Assembly (NCBI GenBank): GCA_012728895.1
Contig: JAAYEG010000069.1
Span: 1 to 64,000 of the forward strand
DNA length: 64,000 bases
Reading direction: 5' to 3'
Origin: Methanospirillum sp.
GTDB lineage: Archaea; Halobacteriota; Methanomicrobia; Methanomicrobiales; Methanospirillaceae
The notes under the pieces are model-generated. The model saw nothing but the letters and a program-made list of their open reading frames with translations, made no database searches and was not told the DNA's origin. The translations under genes were made by a program, and so were the position numbers. Each line of letters opens with the position of its first letter. Within the stretch, counting starts at the first letter, position 1. This document shows positions 25,485 to 42,453 of this stretch, piece by piece.

Positions 25485-26384
25485 TTACGAGACCTTCAGT
25501 ACCCGGGGATCGCCCGTTGCGAGCGCGAGCGCCCGGAGCGCGCTCGCCTCCTTGTCCTTGATCTCGAGCATCAGGTCAAGGTCGCGGCCGGCGCTCGCGG
25601 CGAGGAACCGGGCGAAGTCCTCGTCGTCGAGCGACTCGGCGTGCGTCCCGCGCCGCCGCCCGGGCGCCTGGGAGGCGTAGTCGACCATCGGGGGGCCGTC
25701 GGCAGGCTTCCAGGTCGAGGCGACCTCGTCGAGGAGGGGGCCGATCAACCGTCCGTCGCCGTGGACGGCGTGGTGGAAGACGTCGAGCACGACCGGGACG
25801 CCGCAGGCGCCCGAGACGGCGAGGCAGTCTCTGGCCGTGTAACGGCCGTCGTCGTTCTCGATCGCGAGCCGCCGGCGGAGACGGGGATCCAGCGTGCCGT
25901 GTGTCTCCACGAAACGGGCCATCGCGCTCTCGCGGTCGCCGTAGACGCCGCCGACGTGGACCTGGATCTTCGCGTCCGGGCCGAGCCCGAGGAGGTCGAG
26001 CACCTCCGCGTGGTACATCAGCTCCGTGACCGTCCTCTCGACGATCGCGGGGTCCTTCGCGTTCAACAGGTTGAACTGGTCGGGGTGCATCGAGATGCGG
26101 AGCGCATGTTTCCGGGCGAACGCCCCGATCGCGGCGAACCGGTCCGAGAACTCCTCCTGCCACGGCGCCGTGCAGACCGGGTGCGAGGCGAACGGGACGA
26201 GCCCGGAGCCGATTCGGAACGAGAGGATGCCGCGGTCCACGTTCCAGGAGAGCACCCGCTCCAGGCAGTCGAGGTTGTCGCCGACGGTCCTGAGAAGCCG
26301 CCCGTCGGAGTACGATGCGAGCCGGAAGGTGTGGTTCGCCGTGCAGCCGATCGCGCGGTTGATGCACGGGTACCCGATCCGCAT
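25485..26384 (-). CDS. uvsE: UV damage endonuclease UvdE/UvsE
   Basis: The 299-residue TIM-barrel protein nicks DNA 5' to UV photoproducts, a repair route separate from nucleotide excision. MRIGYPCINRAIG at the N-terminus, ISMHPDQFNLLN, the Glu of AIENDDGRYT and DVFHHAVHGD are the family's metal-site blocks. The gene is about the usual size (Thermus UVDE is near 300). It is divergent from the MutY-like glycosylase with a 68-base spacer, so two base/UV repair genes share one control region. Confidence 0.92.
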   Translation of the reverse strand: MRIGYPCINRAIGCTANHTFRLASYSDGRLLRTVGDNLDCLERVLSWNVDRGILSFRIGSGLVPFASHPVCTAPWQEEFSDRFAAIGAFARKHALRISMHPDQFNLLNAKDPAIVERTVTELMYHAEVLDLLGLGPDAKIQVHVGGVYGDRESAMARFVETHGTLDPRLRRRLAIENDDGRYTARDCLAVSGACGVPVVLDVFHHAVHGDGRLIGPLLDEVASTWKPADGPPMVDYASQAPGRRRGTHAESLDDEDFARFLAASAGRDLDLMLEIKDKEASALRALALATGDPRVLKVS

Positions 26385-26452
26385 GCAGGTGGAGGTGGTC
26401 GCCGCGTGTATTTATCTGCAGGGTTATCGGCCATGGCGACCATACTCTCCTG
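26385..26452. promoter_or_regulatory. divergent promoter of uvsE and the MutY-like gene
   Basis: The 68-base spacer contains GTGTATTTATCTG near its left end, an AT-rich TATA-like element that could serve the plus-strand glycosylase gene, and on the other strand an AAATA element for uvsE. No regulator site is clear. Confidence 0.35.
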
Positions 26453-27367
26453 GTGGACAGCCAGAGCACGCTCGCGGACGGGGATCGCGGGGAACGGGCG
26501 CTCCGGGAGCTCCTGGACACCGAGGGACCGAGTGACCGCGCGATCCTCCTCTTCCGCCGGATCGTCCTCGATCACTACCGGGAATCCGGCCGGCGGATGC
26601 CCTGGCGTGAGACGACCGACCCGTACCGCGTCCTGGTCTCCGAGGTGATGCTCCAGCAGACCCAGGTCGACCGGGTCCGCCCGAAGTACGCCGGGTTCCT
26701 GGAGGCCTTTCCCGATCCCGCGGCGCTCGCCCGCGCCCAAGCGGCGGACGTTCTCCGCGCCTGGCAGGGGCTCGGGTACAACCGCCGGGCCCTCGCGCTG
26801 CAGCGAGCCGCCGCCCGTATCGTCACCGAGTTCGGCGGGCGGGTCCCCGACGACCCCGACGTCCTGGAGACCCTGCCCGGGATCGGACCCGCCACAGCCG
26901 CGGCGATCGCCGTGTACGCGTTCGGCCGGCCGGTCGCCTTCATCGAGACCAACGTGAGGCGGGTCTTCCTCCACTTCTTCTTCCGGGGCATCAGCGGCGT
27001 CACGGACGCCGAGATCCGCCCGCTCGTCGAGCGGGCGCTCGACCGGGAGCGTCCCCGCGAGTGGTACTGGGCGCTCATGGACTACGGCACCCTGCTCGCC
27101 AGGACCGTGCCGAACCCGAACCGGCGCTCCGCTCACCACGCCGTCCAGTCGCGGTTCGAGGGGTCGGCCCGCCAGCTGAGGGGCCGGGTCCTTCGGGCGC
27201 TCGTCGAGGCGGGACCCCTCTCGAGCGCGGAACTCGCGTCCCGGACGGGCGCCGATCCCGCGAGGCTAACGGAGATCCTCGGAAAACTCCGGAGCGAGGG
27301 CTTCGTCGCCGAGGAAGGCCCGGTCTACCGGATCCGCGACACTCCCCCGACCGAGCAATTCAAGTAG
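26453..27367 (+). CDS. MutY-like DNA glycosylase without Fe-S cluster, with winged-helix tail
   Basis: The 304-residue protein has a HhH-GPD fold: RMPWRETTDPYRVLVSEVML with QQTQVDRV carries the catalytic Glu position of MutY, and LETLPGIGPATAAAI is the helix-hairpin-helix. The usual four Cys of the [4Fe-4S] cluster are missing; the whole protein has no cysteine at all, and the corresponding segment reads NPNRRSAHHAVQSRFEGS. The catalytic-Asp position appears to be Glu (FIETNVRRV). Residues about 245-300 look like a winged helix in place of the MutT-like domain. Similar cluster-free proteins exist elsewhere. The start is a GTG without clear ribosome-binding site; substrate is inferred only as a damaged or mispaired base. 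Confidence 0.82.
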   Translation: MDSQSTLADGDRGERALRELLDTEGPSDRAILLFRRIVLDHYRESGRRMPWRETTDPYRVLVSEVMLQQTQVDRVRPKYAGFLEAFPDPAALARAQAADVLRAWQGLGYNRRALALQRAAARIVTEFGGRVPDDPDVLETLPGIGPATAAAIAVYAFGRPVAFIETNVRRVFLHFFFRGISGVTDAEIRPLVERALDRERPREWYWALMDYGTLLARTVPNPNRRSAHHAVQSRFEGSARQLRGRVLRALVEAGPLSSAELASRTGADPARLTEILGKLRSEGFVAEEGPVYRIRDTPPTEQFK

Positions 27368-29362: not shown

Positions 29363-29706
29363 CATCACGAGATGAGCCTTCATCGGGTTTAAGGGTGCTG
29401 AAGGGGCCCCGGGCAGGGAACTCGGACCGGATCCCCGGATAAACCCGGGACGGAGCGCGATCCGGTCGACGGGACGGGAAATGTTTAATAACATCCTTTG
29501 GCGTCGAGGGACCCGGACCGCTGAAAAAAGAGGGGAACGATACCGTTCGCCGGCCCGGACACTGTTTATTCTTCGATGCCCAATCCAGGCCTGAATATGA
29601 CGTTAGGAGACCTTTTTCCGGATAAATTCGCGAGAACAGAAAAGGAATATTTATTTGAACTGGTGAGATATAGTGTAGGAAGATAAATTTATTGATAGTG
29701 CCTCTG
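29363..29706. promoter_or_regulatory. intergenic region with divergent AT-rich promoters
   Basis: The 344-base gap holds no gene that I can support. On the right, GAATATTTATTTG (about 29646-29658) is a good TATA candidate for the large helical protein. On the left a TTAAAC element serves the nucleotidyltransferase. A further AT-rich patch at 29476-29497 has no assigned purpose. Confidence 0.45.
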
Positions 29707-32700
29707 ATGCAAAATCAACAGAGTCCCGTCGACCCGCTGAGAACGGCCGTCCAGGCCCGGAATCCGGCAGCTGCCGGAGAGATCGTCCGCGGTTTTTCGG
29801 GGATCCAGAAACGGAAGGAACGGGCGAACCGGATCCGCGAGGGCAACTCGGTCCTGGTCGAGGCAGCCCTCGTGCAGGAGGAACCGGCATACCTCGAGCA
29901 CCTGCAGGAGCTCGAGAAAGAGGAGGTGGATCTCCTGATCGAGCGCCTGACCGGTCACTACCTCGCCAAAGAGGACGAGCGCTGGATCGATGCGATCCTG
30001 GGGATCACGGGGCAGCTCGATCGGAAGAGCCACCAGTCCCGCCTCCTGTCGCAGGTCTCCCGCACCCTGGTCGAGTCCGGGGTCCGCGAGCGCAAGCAGG
30101 TTCTGATCGATCGGGGCGTGGAGCTGTTCTCCAGGGTCGGTTTTCGCAAGTACCGTTCTGCCCTCTTCATCGAGGTGCTGCCGTCCCTGATCGCGTGGGG
30201 CGTCACAACGCGCCGCATCGAGTACCTCCGGCATGCCCTCGACCTGGTGCCCGAGGTCAACGACGTCTCCGAGCGGGCGAACCTTCACTGCGACATCGTG
30301 ACCGCGATGGTCTCGATCGGGATCGCCGGGCGGGAGATCGAGGTCGTTTTCGAGGCACTCCGCTCCGCGAGCGTGATCCTGCAGAAATTACGCCGGATTC
30401 ACTGCACCTCTTCGATCGTCCAGATGGTCTGGCGTTCCGGGCTCTCCCGGGAGATCGCGGACATCAGGACGGTCATGGGCGCTCTCGCCGACGTGCCCGA
30501 GCCCCAGCGGGTCGAAATCTACGGGTGCCTCGTGCAGGAGCTGCTCGAACAGGTCCGGGACCGGTCCCAGCTCTACTCGATCCTCCTCTCGCTCGAGCGG
30601 GACTCGCCCGAGCTCCGCAGCCACCTGGTGATCCGCCTCCTCAACAAGGCCGAGACCTCGGGCGACTACTGGTTCATCAAGAAGGCGCTCGAGTTCAACG
30701 GTCGGATCACCGACACGGCGCAGGTCCCCGTCCGGGAGATCGTCCACTCGGGGATCCTGATCGCCGAGAAGACCCGGAACGCCGAGATCCTCATGGCGGT
30801 CCTGCCGCTCGTCGACCGGCTCTACGACCCCGAGGCGCTGACGCGGACCTACCTCCAGTTCACGAACACCCTGCTGAGAACCGGACAGTTCTACGACGCC
30901 ATCGAGACCCAAGCGAGGGTGGATGTACGCGACAAGCACCACCGGCACCAGATCGAGGAGACGAGCGTCCGCCTCCTCAAGGAGGCGATCCTCCGCGACG
31001 AGATCGACCTGGTCAACTCCCGTGTGCTCTCGATACTCGCCCCCGAACAGGCAGAGGCAGCGATCTATCGCGCCGTGTTCGAGTTCTGCAAGGAGCGCCC
31101 GTTTGCCGAGATGGCGGGCCAGGTCGGTGCGATCGGGGGCCTCGCCGCGCTCCACCCGCAGGCGGACCGGCTCCTGCTCGACTCGATAGAGGTCCTGATC
31201 GAGCACGGGTTCCTGGAAGAGGGTGACCCCGAGGTATTACTCAGGCTCACCGAGGGGATCCTCGAGGACGAGGCCCGGGAGGGCGCGATCGCCCACGTCA
31301 TCCGGAACCTGACCGCGATCGGGGTCGAGAAGCGGAGCCGGGACTACATCCAGCGCGGGATCGGGCTCGCGTCGAACATCGGGGGGCAGCACACGCGCTC
31401 GGAGGCCCTCTTCGCGGTGATCGAAGCCGCATCGCAGCTCGCGGTCGACCAGTCCGACCTCGACCTCCTGCGGCGTATGAAGTCCTGGTCGACCTCCCTC
31501 CTCGCGAAGGAGTACGCGACCGCCGCCATCGGGAAGATCGTGCAGGGGATGATCCGGTACGCGATGACCGAGAAGACGCCGTACGCGCTGGATGAGGCGG
31601 ACCGGATGCTCGGGATGGTGGACGATGCCCGACTCCAGCGCGAGCTGCGCGACCGGGTGATCGAGACCTACATCCGGGTCGGCTGCCTCCGCCTGGTAGG
31701 TGGGACCGCCGCCAACCAGTCGCCCGACTTCGAGGACGAGGTGCAGCCCTTCCGGCAGGCGCTCGCGCTGATCCGTCAGCACGCGGCGCCGGACCAGGTC
31801 TCGCTCAGGCTCGCGGGGGCGATCGATATCGTCCTCTCGTACGCGGAGCGGTCGAACTCGTCCGCCTTCTTCGTGCCGCTCGCCCTCTTCTCGCTCGAGA
31901 TCGAGAATCCGCTCGAGCGGGACGCGATGATCACGCGGATCGCGGCAGACCTGCGCGAGATCGTGGAACTCCTCGACTCGACCGACCCGTACGAGGTGCT
32001 CACCTACCTGCTGATGCAGCTCGATCAGGCCGAGACCTCGCCGCTGATCATGGACCTCGCGAGCCAGCTCAACGGGCAGGTCAAGGACCCGTACACCCGG
32101 CTCTCCGGGATGGCGACGCTGGCCGATATCCTGGTGCGGCAGGACCGCCAGGAGCAGGGCCTCCGGCTGATCGACGGGATCCTGGCCAGGCTCGACCGGC
32201 TCCCCCACCGATTCCAGCGGATCCTGATCCTTGCCGATATCGCAACCCTGCTCGTCGCCACGGACGAAGCCCGCGCCAGGGACTGCCTGGAGCGGGCGAT
32301 CGGGCTGCTCGACGAGATCGAACCCGACCGGGCATCGTTCGTCCGTGTCCAGCTCGTCCTCTCGATCGTGAGTATCAACGCGGTCAACCGCACCCCGGAC
32401 CACGTCCCGCGGGCGATGGCGATCATCGAGGGGATCGAGAGCCCCGCCGACTACATCGAGGCCCTGATCGCTGTCTCGAACATGGTCCGCGAGAACGCGG
32501 GGGCCTGCCGCGAGATCCTCCGCCTCGTCTCGCGCTCGATCGAGGCGATCCCGAGCCCGTACGAGCGGGGGACCGCGCTGCTGAACGTGATCCCGATCGC
32601 CGAGGTCTGCGGTGAGACCTCGTACGTCGAGGTCTTCCTGGGCGAGGTGGAGCATGCCATGGGCCAGATCAACATCCCGTTCATCGTCGCGGTTCTGAAA

Positions 32701-33276
32701 CGGGCGCTCATCCAGCGGCTGGTGGCGATCGCCCAGCGGCGGGACTCCGAGCGTTTCACGGCGAGAGCGATCGAGGTCGCCCGGGGAATCGAGGACGATG
32801 ACGTCCGGCACGAGGCCCTCCGAAGGCTCGGCGCCGACCAGATTCCCCAGGTCCCCGACAGCGTCCAGGGGGCCGTCCTGGACGCGAAGCGGCGGATCTA
32901 CACGGGCGAGTTCTCGAAGAGCATGATCGCCTCCGTCGACCGAACCCTGCACGCGCTCCAGGACCGGGCGCTCCAGGCGAGGTATTACACAGAGCTCTTC
33001 GTCGCAGCTAAGGAATCGGGCCAGGAGAACCTGGCCGAGAAGTTTCTCAGGTCGGCGATCAATGCTGCAGAGATCATCCGGCCGCTCCCGCGCCGGGTCT
33101 ACGTGCTGGGTAACATGGCGCTCAAGGTCTTCGCGGCCCGGGACGAGACCCGGTCGAGTGACATCATGGACATGGCCGGAGAGGCCGCGACGAACATCCG
33201 GGAGTACCGCCAGCGGGACCAGATCTTCGACGAGCTCGCGATGGTGATCCGGGTCATGCAGGAGCTGCGGGTATGA
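29707..33276 (+). CDS. very long helical-repeat protein, unknown function
   Basis: The 1189-residue protein is predicted to be almost entirely alpha-helical, with paired amphipathic helices of about 35-45 residues repeated along the chain, in the manner of TPR/ARM/HEAT solenoids. Repeats are degenerate, for example around RHALDLVPEVNDVSERANLH and RLIDGILARLDRLPHRFQR. There is no signal peptide, membrane segment or enzymatic motif, so it is likely a cytoplasmic scaffold. The ATG at 29707 is used; TTG 29692 and GTG 29698 are also open. Its stop overlaps the acylphosphatase start by four bases (ATGA). Family not recognised. Confidence 0.75.
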   Translation: MQNQQSPVDPLRTAVQARNPAAAGEIVRGFSGIQKRKERANRIREGNSVLVEAALVQEEPAYLEHLQELEKEEVDLLIERLTGHYLAKEDERWIDAILGITGQLDRKSHQSRLLSQVSRTLVESGVRERKQVLIDRGVELFSRVGFRKYRSALFIEVLPSLIAWGVTTRRIEYLRHALDLVPEVNDVSERANLHCDIVTAMVSIGIAGREIEVVFEALRSASVILQKLRRIHCTSSIVQMVWRSGLSREIADIRTVMGALADVPEPQRVEIYGCLVQELLEQVRDRSQLYSILLSLERDSPELRSHLVIRLLNKAETSGDYWFIKKALEFNGRITDTAQVPVREIVHSGILIAEKTRNAEILMAVLPLVDRLYDPEALTRTYLQFTNTLLRTGQFYDAIETQARVDVRDKHHRHQIEETSVRLLKEAILRDEIDLVNSRVLSILAPEQAEAAIYRAVFEFCKERPFAEMAGQVGAIGGLAALHPQADRLLLDSIEVLIEHGFLEEGDPEVLLRLTEGILEDEAREGAIAHVIRNLTAIGVEKRSRDYIQRGIGLASNIGGQHTRSEALFAVIEAASQLAVDQSDLDLLRRMKSWSTSLLAKEYATAAIGKIVQGMIRYAMTEKTPYALDEADRMLGMVDDARLQRELRDRVIETYIRVGCLRLVGGTAANQSPDFEDEVQPFRQALALIRQHAAPDQVSLRLAGAIDIVLSYAERSNSSAFFVPLALFSLEIENPLERDAMITRIAADLREIVELLDSTDPYEVLTYLLMQLDQAETSPLIMDLASQLNGQVKDPYTRLSGMATLADILVRQDRQEQGLRLIDGILARLDRLPHRFQRILILADIATLLVATDEARARDCLERAIGLLDEIEPDRASFVRVQLVLSIVSINAVNRTPDHVPRAMAIIEGIESPADYIEALIAVSNMVRENAGACREILRLVSRSIEAIPSPYERGTALLNVIPIAEVCGETSYVEVFLGEVEHAMGQINIPFIVAVLKRALIQRLVAIAQRRDSERFTARAIEVARGIEDDDVRHEALRRLGADQIPQVPDSVQGAVLDAKRRIYTGEFSKSMIASVDRTLHALQDRALQARYYTELFVAAKESGQENLAEKFLRSAINAAEIIRPLPRRVYVLGNMALKVFAARDETRSSDIMDMAGEAATNIREYRQRDQIFDELAMVIRVMQELRV

Positions 33277-33548
33277 GGACGGTTGAGGTCCTGATCTCGG
33301 GCCGCGTCCAGGGGGTCGGCTTCCGGGCGTGCGCGAAGAGGATCGCCGACAGCCTGAGCGTGGTGGGAGAGGTGATGAACCTCGCAGACGGGCGCGTCCG
33401 GCTCGTGGTGACGACCGAGGAGATGGTCCTGGAGAAGCTGGTCTCGATGCTCTACGGTTGCCCGCGGGCGATCGTGCGGGAGGTCCGGGTCGTGGAGAGC
33501 GAACCGCTCGCCTTCGCGGACTTCTCGGTCCGGAAGGGGCGTCTCTAG
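33273..33548 (+). CDS. acyP: acylphosphatase
   Basis: The 91-residue protein hydrolyses acyl phosphates such as acetyl phosphate or carbamoyl phosphate. The signature GRVQGVGFRACAKRIAD gives the phosphate-binding loop and catalytic Arg19, and the catalytic Asn is Asn37 in GEVMNLADGRV. The size is typical. The ATG overlaps the helical-repeat gene's stop, so the two are probably coupled. It converges with the Cas1-like gene, overlapping it by four bases at the 3' ends. Confidence 0.92.
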   Translation: MRTVEVLISGRVQGVGFRACAKRIADSLSVVGEVMNLADGRVRLVVTTEEMVLEKLVSMLYGCPRAIVREVRVVESEPLAFADFSVRKGRL

Positions 33549-34459
33549 ACGATCGCAAACTCGCCTTCGCGCTCCAGGGCTTTCACGAACCTCTGGACCT
33601 GCAGGTCGATCCTGGCCCGGTCGATCGAGCCGCGGAGGCGCGCCGAGGTCTCGCGGACGAGGTCGTCGGCCAGGTGGCAACGGTCGGCGGTCCGCTCGAA
33701 CGCGGCCGGGTCGAGCCCCTCGCGCAGGAGGGCGAAGACCGGCCTGTCAACCATCTCGGTCCTGAAGCACTCGGAGAGGTCGAGAACGAGTCCCCTGTCG
33801 CCTGCGGAGAGGATACCGACGGAGGGGTCAAGCCGGGCGCCGATGCAGGCGTGCAGGACGGCGACCGATAGGTAGCCGTACGAGAGAGTGAGAAGGGCGT
33901 TCACCGGGTCGTGGTGCGGGCGGTGCGTCCTTCTTTTAAAGCCGAGCCCGGGGGGGAGGGTCCGCGACATGATCTCGTAGTACATGTCGCCGATCATCCG
34001 GTGAACACGGCGGAGCTCCTGGAGCAGGACGAGGTTGGGCAGCTCCGCGAGAAGACCCCGGACCAGCTCGAGTTCTCCCTCGTAGAGGTTCGCCTTCGCC
34101 TCGTCCAGGAGCCCGAGCCGTGCGTGGGCGGCGAACGTGACGATGGTCGTCGCGACGTTGTGCATCGGCATCGTCTCCTGCAGCCGGCGCATCCGCTCGT
34201 CGTCGCGGTCGCCGAACGGACGGACGACCGCGACCGGTTCGCCGTCGGGCTCGAGAAAGGTGACCCGGATGCCCTCCCGGACCAGCCGGTCGACGGTCCC
34301 GGTCTGGATCGTGTGGCGGCCCTGGAGCAGGAGGTGCCGGAACCCCTCGAGCGGATGATCGGTGACGACCGACCCCTGGCTGACGATCAGGCGGCCCGGG
34401 GCCGAGCGTATGTGCGCGCCGGACCCCCGGACGACGAGCCAGTCCATGCCCTCGGTCAC
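33545..34459 (-). CDS. stand-alone Cas1-like protein, catalytic site degenerate
   Basis: The 304-residue protein matches Cas1 in order of blocks: an N-terminal beta domain (about 1-85), then the helical domain with YYEIMSRTLP (160-169), HRPHHDPVNALLTLSYGYL (179-197), ARLDPSVGILS (208-218) and LVLDLSECFR (224-233). Active Cas1 has a Glu-His-Asp/Glu set. Here D227 and E230 remain, but the His of the GFLH motif is Ser218 and the Glu expected seven residues before the YY pair is His153. No cas2, other cas gene or repeat array is near. The GTG at 34459 has GGAG four bases before it; ATG 34447 is an alternative. It lies 51 bases after nusA on the same strand. Confidence 0.83.
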   Translation of the reverse strand: MTEGMDWLVVRGSGAHIRSAPGRLIVSQGSVVTDHPLEGFRHLLLQGRHTIQTGTVDRLVREGIRVTFLEPDGEPVAVVRPFGDRDDERMRRLQETMPMHNVATTIVTFAAHARLGLLDEAKANLYEGELELVRGLLAELPNLVLLQELRRVHRMIGDMYYEIMSRTLPPGLGFKRRTHRPHHDPVNALLTLSYGYLSVAVLHACIGARLDPSVGILSAGDRGLVLDLSECFRTEMVDRPVFALLREGLDPAAFERTADRCHLADDLVRETSARLRGSIDRARIDLQVQRFVKALEREGEFAIV

Positions 34460-34510: not shown

Positions 34511-34957
34511 TCAGGAGGCGCTGGGCTGCCCGAGCAGCACATCCTGGATGTTGTGCTGCCTGTTCGAGAGCTTCTTCGCCTTGAAGATGTTCTTGCCCTC
34601 CTTCCCGATCGCGATCCCGCGGTCCTCGTCGCGGACGTCGACGTGGGCCACGAGGCCCCGCTCCGATTCCTCGAAGTCGACCTCGAGTACCTGGGCCGGG
34701 AGGAAGCAGTTCTTGACGAACTGCTCGGCGCTGTCCGAGTACTCGACGACCTCGATCCTCTTGCCCATCGCGTCCGAGGCCTTCTTGATCGAGGCTCCCT
34801 TCTTGCCGATCGCCAGCCCCATCTCGCCGGGGTTGACCACGAAGATGATCCGGCTGTTGCGCTCGTCGATGACGCAGTCGCGCGAGGATGCGCCGGTGAG
34901 ACTCTCGAACTCGGCGATCAGGCGCATGCAGTCCTCGGTCAGAACGATGTCGGTCAT
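34511..34957 (-). CDS. nusA: archaeal NusA-like transcription factor (two KH domains)
   Basis: The 148-residue protein consists of two KH RNA-binding domains, with GLAIGKKGASIKKA (GxxG loop) in the first and GIAIGKEGKNIFKAKKL in the second. It lacks the N-terminal RNAP-binding and S1 domains of bacterial NusA, as archaeal proteins do. It is thought to act in transcription elongation or RNA binding. The start is the ATG at 34957, two bases after the rpl30e stop. It is the last recognisable member of the RNA polymerase operon. Confidence 0.92.
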   Translation of the reverse strand: MTDIVLTEDCMRLIAEFESLTGASSRDCVIDERNSRIIFVVNPGEMGLAIGKKGASIKKASDAMGKRIEVVEYSDSAEQFVKNCFLPAQVLEVDFEESERGLVAHVDVRDEDRGIAIGKEGKNIFKAKKLSNRQHNIQDVLLGQPSAS

Positions 34958-34959
34958 GG

Positions 34960-35250
34960 TCAGGTCCTCTTCAGGCTGATGATGTCCGACTCGCCGGGGT
35001 TGACGACCGCGAGCGCGCTCACCATGTGCGGTTTGCCGCAGGCCTTGCCGAGCTGGACCGACGAACCGTCGAAGGTATAGACGAAGACTTCCGACTCGCT
35101 CGTCAAACTGTCCCGGTACGCCTCGGGGCAGTTCTTTGCTACGACGACCATGCTGGCCTCGCCGTCCATGACACACCGCTCGGTCTCGTGCTGACCGAGC
35201 ACCACCTTCCCAGTCTTGATGGCTTTTCGAAGGGATACGTTGAATTCCAT
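34960..35250 (-). CDS. rpl30e: ribosomal protein L30e
   Basis: The 96-residue protein is an L7Ae/L30e-fold RNA-binding protein of the large subunit. SLRKAIKTGKVVLGQHET at the N-terminus and MVVVAKNCPEAYRDSL are the conserved L30e blocks. It lies between rpoA2 and nusA, its usual place in methanogens, with gaps of ten and two bases, so it belongs to the same transcript. Confidence 0.94.
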   Translation of the reverse strand: MEFNVSLRKAIKTGKVVLGQHETERCVMDGEASMVVVAKNCPEAYRDSLTSESEVFVYTFDGSSVQLGKACGKPHMVSALAVVNPGESDIISLKRT

Positions 35251-35260
35251 TGAATTTCCT

Positions 35261-36427
35261 CTACGTTCTCGACTTGGCGACCAGCTTGACGTCGCCCGTT
35301 CCGAGCTGGATCGGCTGGCCGACGATCACGTTCTCGGTCACGCCGTTCAGCTCGTCGATCTCGTTCGCGACGGCCGCGTCGAGCAGGTGGTTGACCGTGA
35401 CCTCGAACGCAGCGCGCGAGAGGACCGACTCCTTCTCGCCGGCGATGCCGTGACGGCCGATCTGCTTGACCTCGCCGTCCATGCACATCATGTCGGCGAC
35501 GAGCATGATGTGCCGCACGTCGACCTTGATCCCCTGCTCACCGAGGGTCGCGAGGGCCTCGGCCATGATCGCGTTCCGTGCGGCCTCGATGCCGAGGACC
35601 TGGGCGATCTCGCTGATGTTGTTGGTCCGGGTCCGAACGGTATCGACGCCGGGGACCTCGAAGACGTCCTTTAGGTTGGAGCCTTCAGTATAAAGTATGT
35701 ACTCACCGCTCTCTTTCCGGACAACGACCCGCTCGATATCGTCGATCCCCTGCACGATCACGTTCCGGACGTGCTCGGCGAGCTGGAAGAGGTTCTGATA
35801 TTTCTCCTGGTCTTTCGGCGTGAAGATGATGACGTGGTTCTCGGGATCGGCCTCGACCTCGAAGTCGCGATAGTGGCGTCGATCGCGGATCTTTTTCTGC
35901 GCCGTCTCGACGATCATCTCCATCGAGATCTTGCGCTTGGCGAGCACGGCCTGGTTGACAGCCACGAGCACCTGCATGTTCTCCATGTCGGTCGTGATGT
36001 CGCCGAACTCGTGGAGCGGGGCCGCCTCGATCTGCCACGAGACCATCCGCGCCCGGTCACGGTCCTCGTTGAACTCGGACGAGAGGTAGATGGTCATGGT
36101 GGGGGTCGAGGGCTCCTTGCGGGCGTCCATGATCTCGATCAGCCGCGGCAGGCCGAGCGTGACATTGATCTCTGCCACGCCGGCGTAGTGGAAGGTCCGC
36201 ATCGTCATCTGCGTCCCCGGCTCACCGATCGACTGGGCCGCGATCACCCCTACCGCCTCGAGCGGCTCGATCCGGGTCTCTTCGAACTCGTTCTGGACCG
36301 CCTCCAGGATCTCCTCGAACTGTTCCTCGGAGAACTCCTTGTCTCCCAGCGAGTCCAGGAGCTGCTGACGTGTTAGCGGCGGGAAGTCGGACGACTCGAT
36401 CCGGTCGCGCATCGCGTCGGTCAGCAT
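35261..36427 (-). CDS. rpoA2: DNA-directed RNA polymerase subunit A''
   Basis: The 388-residue protein is the C-terminal part of the split largest subunit, forming part of the jaw, the cleft and the trigger-loop region. [20 protein letters not shown] is the invariant bridge/trigger-loop block, followed by [20 protein letters not shown]. It pairs with A' to give the equivalent of bacterial beta'. The start shares one base with the rpoA1 stop (TGATG). Confidence 0.97.
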
Positions 36428-39072
36428 CAGACCTCCTCCTTGAGCACGGACTCGACGATCCCCTTCACGTCGACGGGGTCCCCGAACGAGCCCTTCATCG
36501 GGTCGGTCCCGTCCTCGCCGTAGTGGTACTGGATGATCCGCCCCATCGTGGTCCGGACCGTGCCGTCGTACGCGACCTTCAGGTCCTGGAGCGCATTGAT
36601 CAGGCGCCGCTGGAGGTAGCCCGACTGGGATGTCCGGACGGCCGTATCAACTAGGCCCTCGCGCCCGCCGATCGCGTGGAAGAAGAATTCGGTCGGGGAG
36701 AGCCCCTCCTTGTAGGAGTGCAGGATGAACCCGTGGGCGTCCGCCCCGCGGTCTCTCCGCCGGTAGTGGGGCAGGGTCCGCTCCTCGTACCCGCGCATGA
36801 TCCTCTCACCGCGGACAGACTGCTGGCCGATGCAGCCCGCCATCTGGGTCAGGTTCAGCATCGAGCCGCGGGCGCCCGAGACGGCCATCAGCACGGCGGA
36901 GTTCCCGAGCCCGAGGTGCCGGCCCGCGATCTCGCCCGTCCGGTCTCGGGCCTTGCCGAGCACCTGCATGATCTGCATCTCGAGCGTCTCCTCGGGCGTC
37001 CGCCCGGGCATCGGCTCGAGCTGTCCCTCCTCGAAGATCCTTATCCTCCGTTCGACGTCGTCCTTCGCCCGCGCGAGCTCCTCCTCGATCTGGCCGTGCT
37101 CGGTTCTGGAGAGGTCCTCGTCATCGATCCCGAACGAGAAGCCGTCGATCATGATCGCGCGGATCGAGAGCTTGGTCACGTCGTCGATGAACCGGCTCGC
37201 CCGGTCCATGCCGAAACGCCGGATGATGCGGTTCAGGATCGCCCCGTCAAAGGCGCCGATCGCCTTCTTGTCGACCGTGCCGGAGACGAGCTGTCCGTCG
37301 ACGATCCGCACGTAGGCGTCACGCTCGCAGTCCACGTGACGGCACTCGTCGCAGTTCACGCAGGACGAGGCGCGGAAGACCATGTTCAGGTCCGAGGGCA
37401 GGATCATCGAGAAGACCTGCTTGTTCGACCAGCGTGGAGTGCCGTCCTCGTCGATCCTGCCGGGCTCCGGCAGGTGATCGATCTCGCCGTACTTGAGGAG
37501 GTAGAGGACCTCGGACTTAGTGAACCAGCGCAGGTCGTGGGTCAGCATGAAGATCCCCGAGATGTGATCGTGGATTCCCCCGATGATGGGGCCGCCGAAC
37601 CTGGGCGAGAGGATGTTCTCCTGGACCGCGATCAGGATCGCGGCCTCAGCCCTCGCCTCCTCGGTCTGCGGCACGTGGAGGTTCATCTCGTCCCCGTCGA
37701 AGTCGGCGTTGTACGGCGGGCAGACGGCGGGGTTCAGCCTGAACGTCTTGCCGTCCATCACCTTGATCCGGTGGGCCATGATCGACATCCGGTGGAGCGA
37801 CGGCTGCCGGTTGAAGAGGACGATGTCCCCGTCGCGCAGCTGCCGCTCCACCGTGTAGCCCGGCTCGAGCTGCTCGGCGATCGTCTCCAGGTTGTCACCC
37901 CCGAGCCGTAACCGCCGTTTGTCGGGCCGGATCACGTAGTTCGCGCCGCAGGGATCCCTGAGCGTCCGCCTCTCGGGGCCCCGGAGCACGAACTCCCTCA
38001 TCTCCTCCAGGTTGTGGGTCGTCACCCTCACCGGCACCGTCATCTCGACGGCGATCGAGAGCGGGACGCCTACCTCGGTCACCGAGAGGTTCGGGTTCGG
38101 GGAGATCACCGTGCGGGCCGAGAAGTTGACCCGCTTGCCCGACAGCGAACCGCGGAACCGGCCGTCCTTGCCCTTGAGCCGCTGCGAGAGGGTCTTGAGC
38201 GGCCTGCCCGAGCGGTGGCGCGCCGGCGGGCAGCCGGCCACCTCATTGTCCAGGTAGGTCGTGACGTGGTATTGCAGCAGCTCCCAGAGGTCCTCGATGA
38301 TCAGCTGGGGGGCGCCCGCGTCCTGGTTCTCCTTGAACCGCTGGTTGATCCGGATGATGTCGACGAGCTTGTGCGTGAGATCGTCCTCGGATCTCTGGCC
38401 GTTCTCCAGGATGATCGAGGGGCGCATCGTGACCGGCGGCACCGGCAGCACGGTCAATACGGTCCACTCGGGCCGCGCGACATCCGGGTTGATCCCGAGC
38501 AGGCGCAGGTCCGAGGGGGGGATCCGCTCGAGCCGGGCGCGGATATCGGCCGGCGTCAGCTTGTGCTCGCTCTTCCTGCCTTCCTCGAGCAGCACCTCCG
38601 AGAAGGTGGTCGGCTTCTCGAAGTTCACCTTGAGCTGGAGTTCCCCGCAGTGCGGGCACGCCCGCTCCTTCTTGATGTCCTTCTCGGTCAGAACTTCCCC
38701 GCCGAGCTCGTCATCCGCCGTGAGCGAGACCTTCTGGATCTCGTCGGGCGAGAGGAGGAGCCGGCCGCAGGACCGGCAGGTGACCCGGAGCAGCTTCCGG
38801 ATCAGGCGCGTGTACCCGACGTGGATGACAGGCTTCGCGAGCTCGATGTGGCCGAAGTGGCCCGGGCAGTCCGCGGCCTTCTGGTCGCAGGTCTTGCAGC
38901 GCAGCCCGGGATCGATCACCCCGAGCGCGAGGTCCATCAGTCCCTGGGGGTACGGGAACCCGTCGTCGTCGTAGGTATCCGCCCAGATGATCTTCCTGAC
39001 GGACATGGTCCGGATCTCCTTGGGCGAGAGAAGGCCGAACGTGATCTTTCCGATGCGTTTTGGACTCGGCAT
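36427..39072 (-). CDS. rpoA1: DNA-directed RNA polymerase subunit A'
   Basis: The 881-residue protein is the larger half of the split largest subunit and carries the active-site metal loop [10 protein letters not shown]. The N-terminal zinc site is [18 protein letters not shown] (about residues 58-75). The length is usual for archaeal A'. It follows rpoB1 by seven bases and is translationally coupled to rpoA2. Confidence 0.98.
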
Positions 39073-39079
39073 GTGTCGA

Positions 39080-40894
39080 TTACACCTGGTCCTCGAGGAC
39101 CATCCTGGGGGCGATCCCCATACTCTTCATCTCGTCGAGCAGGAGCTTGAACGCGTAGCTCATCTCGACGAGGTAGATGTCGGTCTCGGCGCCACAGACG
39201 AGGCAGCGGGTCGTGTTCCGCTTCCGGTCGAGCATGGCGACCATGCCGCACTTGGCACAGACGTACTGCTGGACCTTGTCGGACTCGTCGAGAAGGCGCT
39301 CCTTCAGGGCCATCGCGGCCCCGTGTCCGATCATCACGTCGCGCTCCATCTCGCCGAACCGCAGACCGCCCTCTCGGGCGCGCCCCTCGGTCGGTTGCCG
39401 GGTCAGGACCTGCACCGGCCCGCGCGAACGCGCGTGCATCTTTGACGAGACCATGTGGTAGAGCTTCTGGTAGTAGATGACGCCGATATAGATGTCGGCC
39501 ACGAACGATTTGCCGGTGATCCCGTCGTACATCACCTCGCGCCCGGTGGGAGCGAAGCCGAACTGCATCAGCTCCGCGCGGAGGTCGGCCTCCCGTTCGC
39601 CCGAGAACGCGGTCGCGTCGATCCTGCGCCCCTCGAGCGAGCCCACCTTCCCGCCGATCATCTCGAGCATGTGCCCGATCGTCATACGGGAGGGGATCGC
39701 GTGGGGGTTGATGACCAGGTCCGGGACCTGGCCGCCCTCGGTGAACGGCAGGTCCTCGGGAGCCGAGATCAGGCCGATCACCCCTTTCTGCCCGTGGCGG
39801 GAGGCGAACTTGTCCCCCACCTCGGGCACGCGAAGGTCCCGCGTCCGGACCTTGACGAGCCGGGACGAGTTCTCGCCCTCGGTGATGATCACGGTATCGA
39901 CGATCCCCCGCTCGTTCGAGCGCATCGTGACCGAGGTGTCGCGCCGCTTCTCGACCGTGATCAGGTCGGAGGTCGGCTCCTCGAGGAACCGGGGAGGCGA
40001 GGTCTTGCCGATGAGCACGTCCTTCTCGCTGACGATCGTCTCGGGGTTGATGATGCCGTCGTCGTCGAGGTTCACGTAGAACTCCTCGCCGTGGGCGCCG
40101 GTCACCTCCGAGTCGGGTATCTCGATCCGGTCGACCTGCCCGCCGGGATACCGCCGCTCCTCCCCCTCGTAGGTGCGGAAGAAGTGAGAGCGCCCGAGCC
40201 CGCGGTCGATCGAGGCTCGGTTGAAGATGAGCGCGTCCTCAATGTTGAATCCCTCGTACGAGAGGATCGCCACCACGAAATTCTGACCGGCAGGCCGGTC
40301 GTCCGACCCGATCACCTCGTTGGTCTGGGTGCGGACGAGCGGCTTCTGGACATAGTGGAGCTGGTGGCCGCGCGTGTCCGGCCGGAGCTTCAGGTTGGCC
40401 GAGCTGAACCCGAGCGCCTGCTTCACCATCCCCGCGCCCATCGTGACCCGCGGGCTCGCATTGTGCTCCGGGAACGGCACGTGGGCCGCGCCGAGGCCCA
40501 GGATCAGGGACGGGTCGATCTCAAGGTGGGTGTGTTCGGGCGTCAGCTCCTCCTCTCGGATCGCGATGAAGAGGTCCTCCTCCTCCTCGGCGTCGATGAA
40601 CTCGACGAGCCCCTGGCGGACCAGGTCAGCGAACTCGATCTCGTTCTGCTCGAGCCGCACCAGGTCCTCGTTCGTCAGCACGGGCCGCCCGTTCTCGACC
40701 ACGATCAGCGGCCGGCGGGCGCGACCCCGGTCCGTGTGGACGATCACGTCGCCGTTGTACGGCTTGTACGAGGCGTTGACCTCGGTCGAGAGCGCCCCGC
40801 ACCGGCGCATCCGCCGGATCTCCCCGACCAGGGTCTCCGGGTTCTCGACGAGCCCGATCAGGGCCCCGTCGACGAAGACCCTCGACTTCTTCAT
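39080..40894 (-). CDS. rpoB1: DNA-directed RNA polymerase subunit B'
   Basis: The 604-residue protein is the C-terminal half of the split second-largest subunit. [19 protein letters not shown], the lysine-containing RHGQKGVIG and [19 protein letters not shown] are hallmark blocks. A C-terminal zinc site is formed by CAKCG and CLVCG. A split B subunit is typical of methanogens and halophiles. The start overlaps the rpoB2 stop by four bases. Confidence 0.98.
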
Positions 40895-42453
40895 CTGACC
40901 GCCTCCCCCTTGAGCCCCTCGACACCCATCGCGTACAGTGCCGAGAGCACCTCGTCATCGATTTGGACCCCCTTCGAGATCTCGACGAGCTGGGCGAAGT
41001 TCTTCACCAGGCCGCAGTTCGGCCCCTCCGGGGTCTCGCTCGGGCAGATCCTGCCCCACTGGGTCGGGTGCAGGTCGCGGGCCTCGAAGTGGGGCTGAGA
41101 CCGCGAGAGCGGCGAGATGACCCGGCGCAGGTGCGAGAGCACCGCCATGTGGTCTACACGGTCCAGGAGCTGGGAGACGCCGGTCCGGCCGCCGACCCAG
41201 TTCCCGGTCGCGAGCGGATGGAGCAGCCGCTCGGTCAGGACGTCGGCTCGGACGGCCGTCCCGATCGAGAGGTCGCGGTGGCGCATCGAGGCGCGCTCGA
41301 GCTGGTACTTGACGTCACGGGTCAGGCGGTTGAGCGAGATCCGAAAGAGATCCTCCATCAGGTCGCCCGCGAGCTTGAGCCGCTTGTTCGAGTAGTGGTC
41401 CTTGTCGTCGATCCGTCGCTTGTCGAGCACGAGGTCGAAGCAGGCCTCGGCCATCCGCCCGAGGAAGTGGGCCTTCGCCAGGCGGACACCCCGGACCGCC
41501 TCCAGGTAGCCGTCGTCCTCCTCGTTCAATCCGAACGGCATCAGGTAGTTGAGGTGGGGCAGCAGGTAGTTGTCGAGCACGAACTCGGCCCGCTTCCGCT
41601 GGTAGTCTCGCGTCTGGTTCGGCGCGAGCTTCTTGCCCACGTACATGATCCCGCAGTCGACCGAGTCGCACGCGGACTCCTCGAGGTTCTGCATCATGAA
41701 GGTCAGGATATCCTCCTCGGTCGAGACCGCCTCGACGACCGCGTGGTCCGAGTCCAGCCCCAGCGCGCGCATCAGGTCGACGAACTTGAGATGGCCGGCC
41801 ACCGACGGGAACGAGACCTCGAGCAGGTTCTTCTTGTTTCGCTCGACCACGACCAGGGCCCGGTACCCGCGGTACTGCGAGAAGACCTTCGCGACGTAGA
41901 TCCGCTCGTTGTAGCGCTCGGTGAACTCGGTCATGATCTTGTTCGAGGCGAGGTCCTCGAGGGTCATCAGCACCCGCTCGGTCCCGTTCACGACGAAGTA
42001 GCCCCCGGGATCGAGCGGGTCCTCGCCGTGCGAGGTCCGCTCGTCGTCGTTCATCCCGAAGAGGTTGCAGGCCGTCGACCCGACCATGATCGGGAGCTGC
42101 CCGATCGTGGTGACCACGGGTTCCTGCCGCTCCCCGCTGGTGACCAGGGTCATATCGAGCTGCATCGGGGCCGCGTAGGTGAGGTTACGGAGGCGCGCCT
42201 CGCTGGGAAAGAGATCCCCCTGCGAGCCGTCGGCCTCCCGCACGAGCGGCTTCATGATACGGACCTGGCCGAGCTCGACCCAGACGGGCTCGTTGGACTT
42301 GCCGCGGTTCTCGATGTCGGTCTCGATGACCCGCTGTTCGTCCACGACCTTCTGGAGGTTGTGGGCGAGAAAATGGTTGAACGAGTCCAGTTGATGTCTC
42401 GCCACGTGCTCGTGTGAGAAGTAGGCCTTCGATAATATGCTTCTGTCTAACAG
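40891..42453 (-). CDS. rpoB2: DNA-directed RNA polymerase subunit B'', with CTG start
   Basis: The 520-residue protein is the N-terminal half of the split second-largest subunit (protrusion, lobe and fork). [22 protein letters not shown] and [18 protein letters not shown] are conserved. A GTG at 42405 would start at [11 protein letters not shown], but the 16 codons before it encode [15 protein letters not shown], which is family-like sequence. In that extension no ATG, GTG or TTG is in frame; an in-frame TAA lies ten codons further up, and a CTG at 42453 stands where Met belongs, with GGGG eight bases upstream. The gene follows rpoH by 21 bases. Confidence 0.95.

Follow-up and report, generated by a model that had tools for sequence, protein, structure and literature searches.

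What does a Cas1 protein do once its active site is incomplete and it stands apart from any CRISPR-Cas locus? The question is raised by a gene in a 64-kb stretch of Methanospirillum sp. DNA, referred to here as the window. The standard example of a mobile-element gene taken into CRISPR is the recruitment of a casposase as Cas1. In Methanomicrobiales events seem to have run the other way, with a gene of immunity becoming a core gene of the whole order. Published accounts set this group of proteins aside as inactive or vestigial, and its retention, along with the new residues fixed within it, reopens the question of what a dead Cas1 does.

Cas1 identity and distribution of the gene

A preliminary description of the window proposed a stand-alone Cas1-like protein at 33545–34459. 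The reading frame is real, and to that description can be added that it lies on the minus strand (Table 1). Cas1 profile searches gave strong matches: Pfam Cas_Cas1 (PF01867), with a cut-off of 22.3, scores 150.9 bits, TIGR00287 scores 110.1 bits against 71.7, and the PADLOC Cas1 score is 136 bits. Homology to Cas1 spans nearly the whole length of the protein, and its best PDB relative by profile is the A. fulgidus Cas1 (PDB 4n06).

Table 1. Features of the cas1-solo locus, in window coordinates
Feature	Position	Strand	Description
1194-aa helical protein gene	29692..33276	+	No Pfam family; upstream of and overlapping the acylphosphatase gene (start-stop overlap)
Acylphosphatase gene, convergent	33273..33548	+	PF00708, 61.8 bits; its stop overlaps the solo stop at CTAG 33545-33548
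cas1-solo gene	33545..34459	-	304 aa, GTG start, TAG stop; PF01867 and TIGR00287 matches
Asp227-Glu230 codons	33770..33781	-	Retained acidic pair D-x-x-E; D227 in 73/75 solo proteins, acid at 230 in 71/75
Ser218 codon (TCC)	33806..33808	-	Catalytic His column (E. coli H208); H in 42/42 canonical, 34/75 solo
Codons of residues 146-168	33956..34024	-	Former catalytic-Glu helix; holds family-invariant E148, R151, Y160, Y161, E162, R166
His153 codon (CAC)	34001..34003	-	Catalytic Glu column (E. coli E141); E in 42/42 canonical, 4/75 solo
Archaeal nusA	34511..34957	-	TIGR01952, 161.2 bits; 51 bases between nusA stop and solo gene
L30e-family gene and RNA polymerase subunit genes A'', A', B', B''	34960..42405	-	B' and B'' assigned by position and sequence

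The predicted structure agrees with this assignment. An AlphaFold model built on a shallow alignment of 17 sequences (the window protein, one partial ortholog and 15 Cas1 proteins from viral contigs) has a Cas1 fold with a pLDDT of 79.7 and a pTM of 0.71, as the preliminary description had anticipated in proposing a retained fold; a single-sequence prediction, with a pLDDT of 42.8, was unusable. All fifty displayed matches of the model in a Foldseek search of the PDB are Cas1 proteins or casposases, with TM-scores mostly of 0.6–0.68 and high rmsd. The relative placement of the two domains in the model does not appear to be reliable and, because its alignment consists mostly of canonical Cas1, the model cannot display the peculiarities of the solo family.

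The gene is nearly universal in its order. A protein search (E below 1e-10) found a solo ortholog in 217 of 232 Methanomicrobiales genomes, among them 133 of the 135 good ones, and in 38 of 40 genera. A family profile (A1) run across 394 genomes of the phylum scores 356–464 bits inside the order. In the approximately 300 genomes outside it no score exceeds 158 bits, and the best match there is an ordinary Cas1 whose active site is intact; no solo ortholog was found outside Methanomicrobiales among these sampled genomes. The class-level comparison covers the order Methanomicrobiales only. A search of viral contigs found no member of the family, and a scan of genome contigs returned a single relative, from a Methanomicrobiales archaeon. 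The two good genomes that lack the gene (G161 and G093) are assembled in 70 and 190 contigs, and its absence there may be an assembly gap. One genome (G144) has two copies on different contigs (C67 and C101), each approximately 42% identical to the query, possibly from a strain mixture.

In a tree with 43 canonical Cas1 proteins, the 75 solo proteins, which do not include the published group 1 sequences, are monophyletic with a support of 0.84. Within the solo gene tree, rooted with family f3, most genera and the families f1, f5 and f6 are monophyletic, and f2 and f4 are not. The gene evolves under purifying selection: pairwise dN/dS values range from 0.07 to 0.39, the highest being found in the window's own genus, and the frames are open, with no internal stops, among the solo matches listed.

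The window locus is a new member of the Cas1-solo group 1 family, reportedly first described by Makarova in 2013, which supports the earlier suggestion that the protein belongs to an archaeal family of stand-alone Cas1. Krupovic (2014) treated "Cas1-solo group 1", the Methanomicrobiales family, as probably inactive and set it aside; the traits published for it are confinement to Methanomicrobiales, no link to CRISPR-cas, its own clade in the Cas1 tree and no sign of horizontal transfer (PMC4046053). The group was later labelled probably vestigial (PMC9755687), and the literature searched, which left out most subscription papers, assigns it no function. The window protein resembles the published group in being restricted to the order, lying outside CRISPR-cas loci, having an incomplete active site and falling in a clade of its own. 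Two differences stand out. The published accounts give the group no member with a complete site, whereas one protein here (L040) carries the full E-H-D-E set, and what has been called probably vestigial is, in the present data, a conserved core gene. New with respect to the published accounts are the near-universal retention, the persistence in genomes without other Cas1 or Cas2, the invariant residues specific to the family, the single member whose active site is complete, and the acylphosphatase gene as a conserved neighbor in convergent orientation.

Active site and proposed function

The catalytic positions were compared in an alignment of the 75 solo orthologs with the genome's own Cas1e and 42 intact Cas1 proteins, of which almost all come from Methanomicrobiales. 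The intact proteins have Glu, His, Asp and Glu (Asp in Cas1e) at the four catalytic columns without exception, and at the same columns the window protein has His153, Ser218, Asp227 and Glu230 (H-S-D-E). Both the codons and the alignment thus confirm the initial observation that the metal-binding His is replaced by Ser218 and the expected Glu by His153, while Asp227 and Glu230 are retained. Across the family, the catalytic Glu is missing in 71 of the 75 proteins, with His at position 153 in most members, and the catalytic His is missing in 41; the combination H-H-D plus an acid occurs in 22. The set is incomplete in 74 proteins. The single complete set is found in genome G126 (L040, 5992–6915, minus strand), and its genus sister (L030) has E-N-D-E. 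The conservation of D227 and of an acid at 230, while the positions of the catalytic Glu and His drift, indicates that acidic residues there still matter.

The likeness to CRISPR-associated Cas1 extends over almost the whole length of the protein and includes the predicted fold and residues Y160, R177, D184, N187, D227 and D238. In contrast, the window protein has no catalytic Glu, no catalytic His, no Cas2 and no nearby array. In 71 of the 75 solo proteins the loop that leads from the His motif to the Asp motif, before D227, is three residues shorter than in canonical Cas1; the C-terminal tail beyond position 270 is shorter as well, with a median of 36 residues against 53. R177, D184 and N187 are kept in 74 of the 75 solo proteins, and D238 is also retained.

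Other residues are fixed in the solo family itself. Twelve columns (W7, G14, G47, G128, E129, E148, R151, Y160, Y161, E162, R166 and D238) are invariant among 44 diverse members that are 29–64% identical to the window protein, and approximately 20 positions, including H16, H42, H49, E129, R151, E162, R166, R176, R260 and C261, are at least 90% conserved in solo proteins yet rare in canonical Cas1. The helix formed by residues 146–165 in the predicted model is the one that bears the catalytic Glu in active Cas1. Since this former catalytic helix carries several of the family-fixed residues, the loss of catalysis was accompanied by a rebuilding of the region and not by decay.

The reading preferred here, tentatively and as somewhat short of probable, is that solo Cas1 is a nuclease-dead, nucleic-acid-binding housekeeping protein derived from a captured CRISPR-type Cas1. 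The capture would have taken place in the ancestor of Methanomicrobiales, after which the protein would have parted from Cas2 and ceased to act as an integrase, its gene being passed on vertically as part of the core set of the order. It would probably be dimeric, as are other Cas1 proteins. Cas1 proteins act on branched DNA, and the fold together with Y160, R177, D184, N187 and D238 may allow the solo protein to bind branched or forked DNA, while the remodelled helix at the former active site (E148, R151, Y160–E162 and R166) may provide a new contact, structural or with a partner. The protein would then protect or remodel intermediates of replication or repair, or recruit partners to them, without cutting. 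The DNA-binding or structural job that the preliminary description had suggested remains putative. The near-universal retention of the gene, even where the CRISPR genes that write memory are lacking, means that it was most likely recruited for an everyday job in the cell. Counted against the preferred reading are the E-H-D-E set of L040 and, for a role in repair, the lack of a conserved operon partner, the gene standing mostly alone beside the convergent acylphosphatase gene. A broader formulation is rather unlikely: the CRISPR integrase would now be an indispensable housekeeping protein with a rebuilt site (R151, E148, E162, R166 and D227/E230), whose new chemistry or branched-DNA job is unrelated to immunity.

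Haloferax volcanii Cas1 takes part in DNA repair, a role that needs the active-site Glu, as the E158A variant fails to rescue (PMC9051519). As is proposed for the solo protein, an archaeal Cas1 here functions beyond immunity. However, the Haloferax protein belongs to a type I-B locus and depends on E158, whereas the Glu is lost in the window protein, and the parallel is therefore only partial. Replacement of the flap nuclease Fen1 by solo Cas1 was also considered and rejected, since the 16 genomes tested all encode Fen1 and thus lack no flap nuclease that the solo protein could replace.

The main rival to a nuclease-dead binding protein is a new enzyme, in which the old metal site would have decayed and a new catalytic center would have arisen on the Cas1 fold from invariant polar residues. 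Candidates are H42, H49, E129, E148, R151, E162, R166, R176, R260 and C261, together with D227 and E/D230. Many of the invariant polar residues are indeed specific to the solo family, the acids at 227 and 230 persist despite the drift at 153 and 218, and the prevalence of His153, along with the H-H-D-plus-acid set in part of the family, could represent a metal site. The invariant residues could, however, be structural or contact a partner, and the candidate metal ligands at 153 and 218 vary freely, the window protein itself having H-S-D-E. A new enzyme is judged unlikely.

Still less likely is a protein–protein scaffold, in which the Cas1 fold would be kept as an assembly module that makes no nucleic-acid contact. 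The lost catalysis, the fixed, family-specific charged residues and the shortened C-terminal tail speak for such a module. Against it stand the retention of R177, D184 and N187, which the family has in common with DNA-binding Cas1, and the lack of any conserved operon partner.

Genomic neighborhood

The preliminary description places the gene 51 bases after nusA, with both on one strand, just beyond the RNA polymerase operon. The spacing is correct, with nusA ending at 34511, and the placement holds in the window. It does not hold as a conserved context: when the nusA-cas1 order was looked for in related genomes, just two genera out of 36, the window's own and its sister in the gene tree, had nusA upstream of the solo gene, so that the location after the polymerase genes reflects a local rearrangement. 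The conserved neighbor is instead the acylphosphatase gene, which adjoins the solo gene tail-to-tail in 31 of the 36 genera with a typical gap of approximately 11 bases, although this conserved convergence need not imply a common function. Orthologs of the 1194-aa protein are found at the same place in 15 of the 36 genera; the PDB matches of this protein are designed helical repeats, and these matches are probably compositional. In other genera the upstream neighbor is often a divergent pair of AMP-binding enzymes, and the solo gene is often a single-gene unit. A simple pattern search around the window gene found no TATA-like motif.

These comparisons bear on the idea that the protein is a factor that acts in transcription or translation together with NusA and the RNA polymerase operon. 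In the two sister genera the solo gene follows nusA on the same strand and, with the short spacing seen in the window, the two are probably cotranscribed. Yet no nusA is nearby in the remaining genera, and even in these two the acylphosphatase, 1194-aa, transferase and CBS genes also adjoin the solo gene, leaving such a factor improbable.

The neighborhood also separates the gene from casposases. The casposase (Cas1-solo group 2; PDB 6opm) is a stand-alone Cas1 homolog, likewise found in methanogens, and matches the predicted fold, but casposases have an intact active site, whereas that of the window protein is degenerate, and they are accompanied by family B polymerase and HNH genes and by terminal inverted repeats. 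No PolB, HNH or HTH gene stands beside the solo gene, whose neighbors encode RNA polymerase, L30e, NusA, acylphosphatase and the 1194-aa protein, and a search for terminal inverted repeats around it gave only chance-like inverted repeats of 70–79%. A casposon is rejected on the lack of PolB and of terminal inverted repeats. Elsewhere in the window, genes for a UV endonuclease (UvdE) and an HhH-GPD glycosylase are found at 25485–27367, approximately 6–8 kb from the solo gene.

Relation to CRISPR-Cas

The preliminary description reported no cas2, other cas gene or repeat array in the 64 kb, and this was borne out: no CRISPR-like array was seen in the window, and none of the window neighbors examined is a cas gene. 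The neighbors identified at 39 solo loci include no cas genes either. The genome from which the window comes (G000) does contain a complete type I-E CRISPR-Cas locus on another contig (C17; L036, 1140–10769), consisting of cas3, cse1, cse2, cas7, cas5, cas6, cas1e and cas2e. Its cas1e is intact (TIGR03638, 373.8 bits), and its array has at least 11 repeats with a period of 61 bases and reaches the end of the contig. As this array has its own cas1e-cas2e pair, it can be accounted for without the solo gene. The strong profile match, the degenerate site and an array elsewhere with its own cas1e-cas2e together leave the initial reading standing.

Separation from CRISPR is clearest where the solo gene is the only Cas1. 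By PF01867 counts, 46 of the 135 good genomes carry it and no other Cas1, and Cas2 of either Pfam family was found in none of these 46, compared with 12 of 12 control relatives that have a canonical Cas1. Seven of the 46 are assembled in one or two contigs, and missing sequence is therefore not the cause of the absence of Cas1 and Cas2. Service to the genome's own CRISPR array is thus rejected, given the intact cas1e-cas2e of the type I-E locus and the 46 genomes that have neither gene.

The intact type I-E pair and array of the window genome would offer a modulator of CRISPR adaptation something to act on; it could, for example, join the cell's intact Cas1 as a dominant-negative subunit. This role is highly improbable, as the 46 genomes, including the seven in one or two contigs, hold no other Cas1 or Cas2 to modulate, and the CRISPR types of the hosts differ across the order. 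Least probable of all is a vestigial gene in slow decay, as the literature suggests for the group and as the lost catalytic residues might imply, which is rejected by the near-universal retention with open frames in the matches listed, the dN/dS values and the 12 invariant columns. A further weak protein match in the window's own genome (G000:C49:53871-54119, L002; E 2.5e-5) lies inside a 936-aa open frame, is missed by the Cas1 family model and is probably due to chance.
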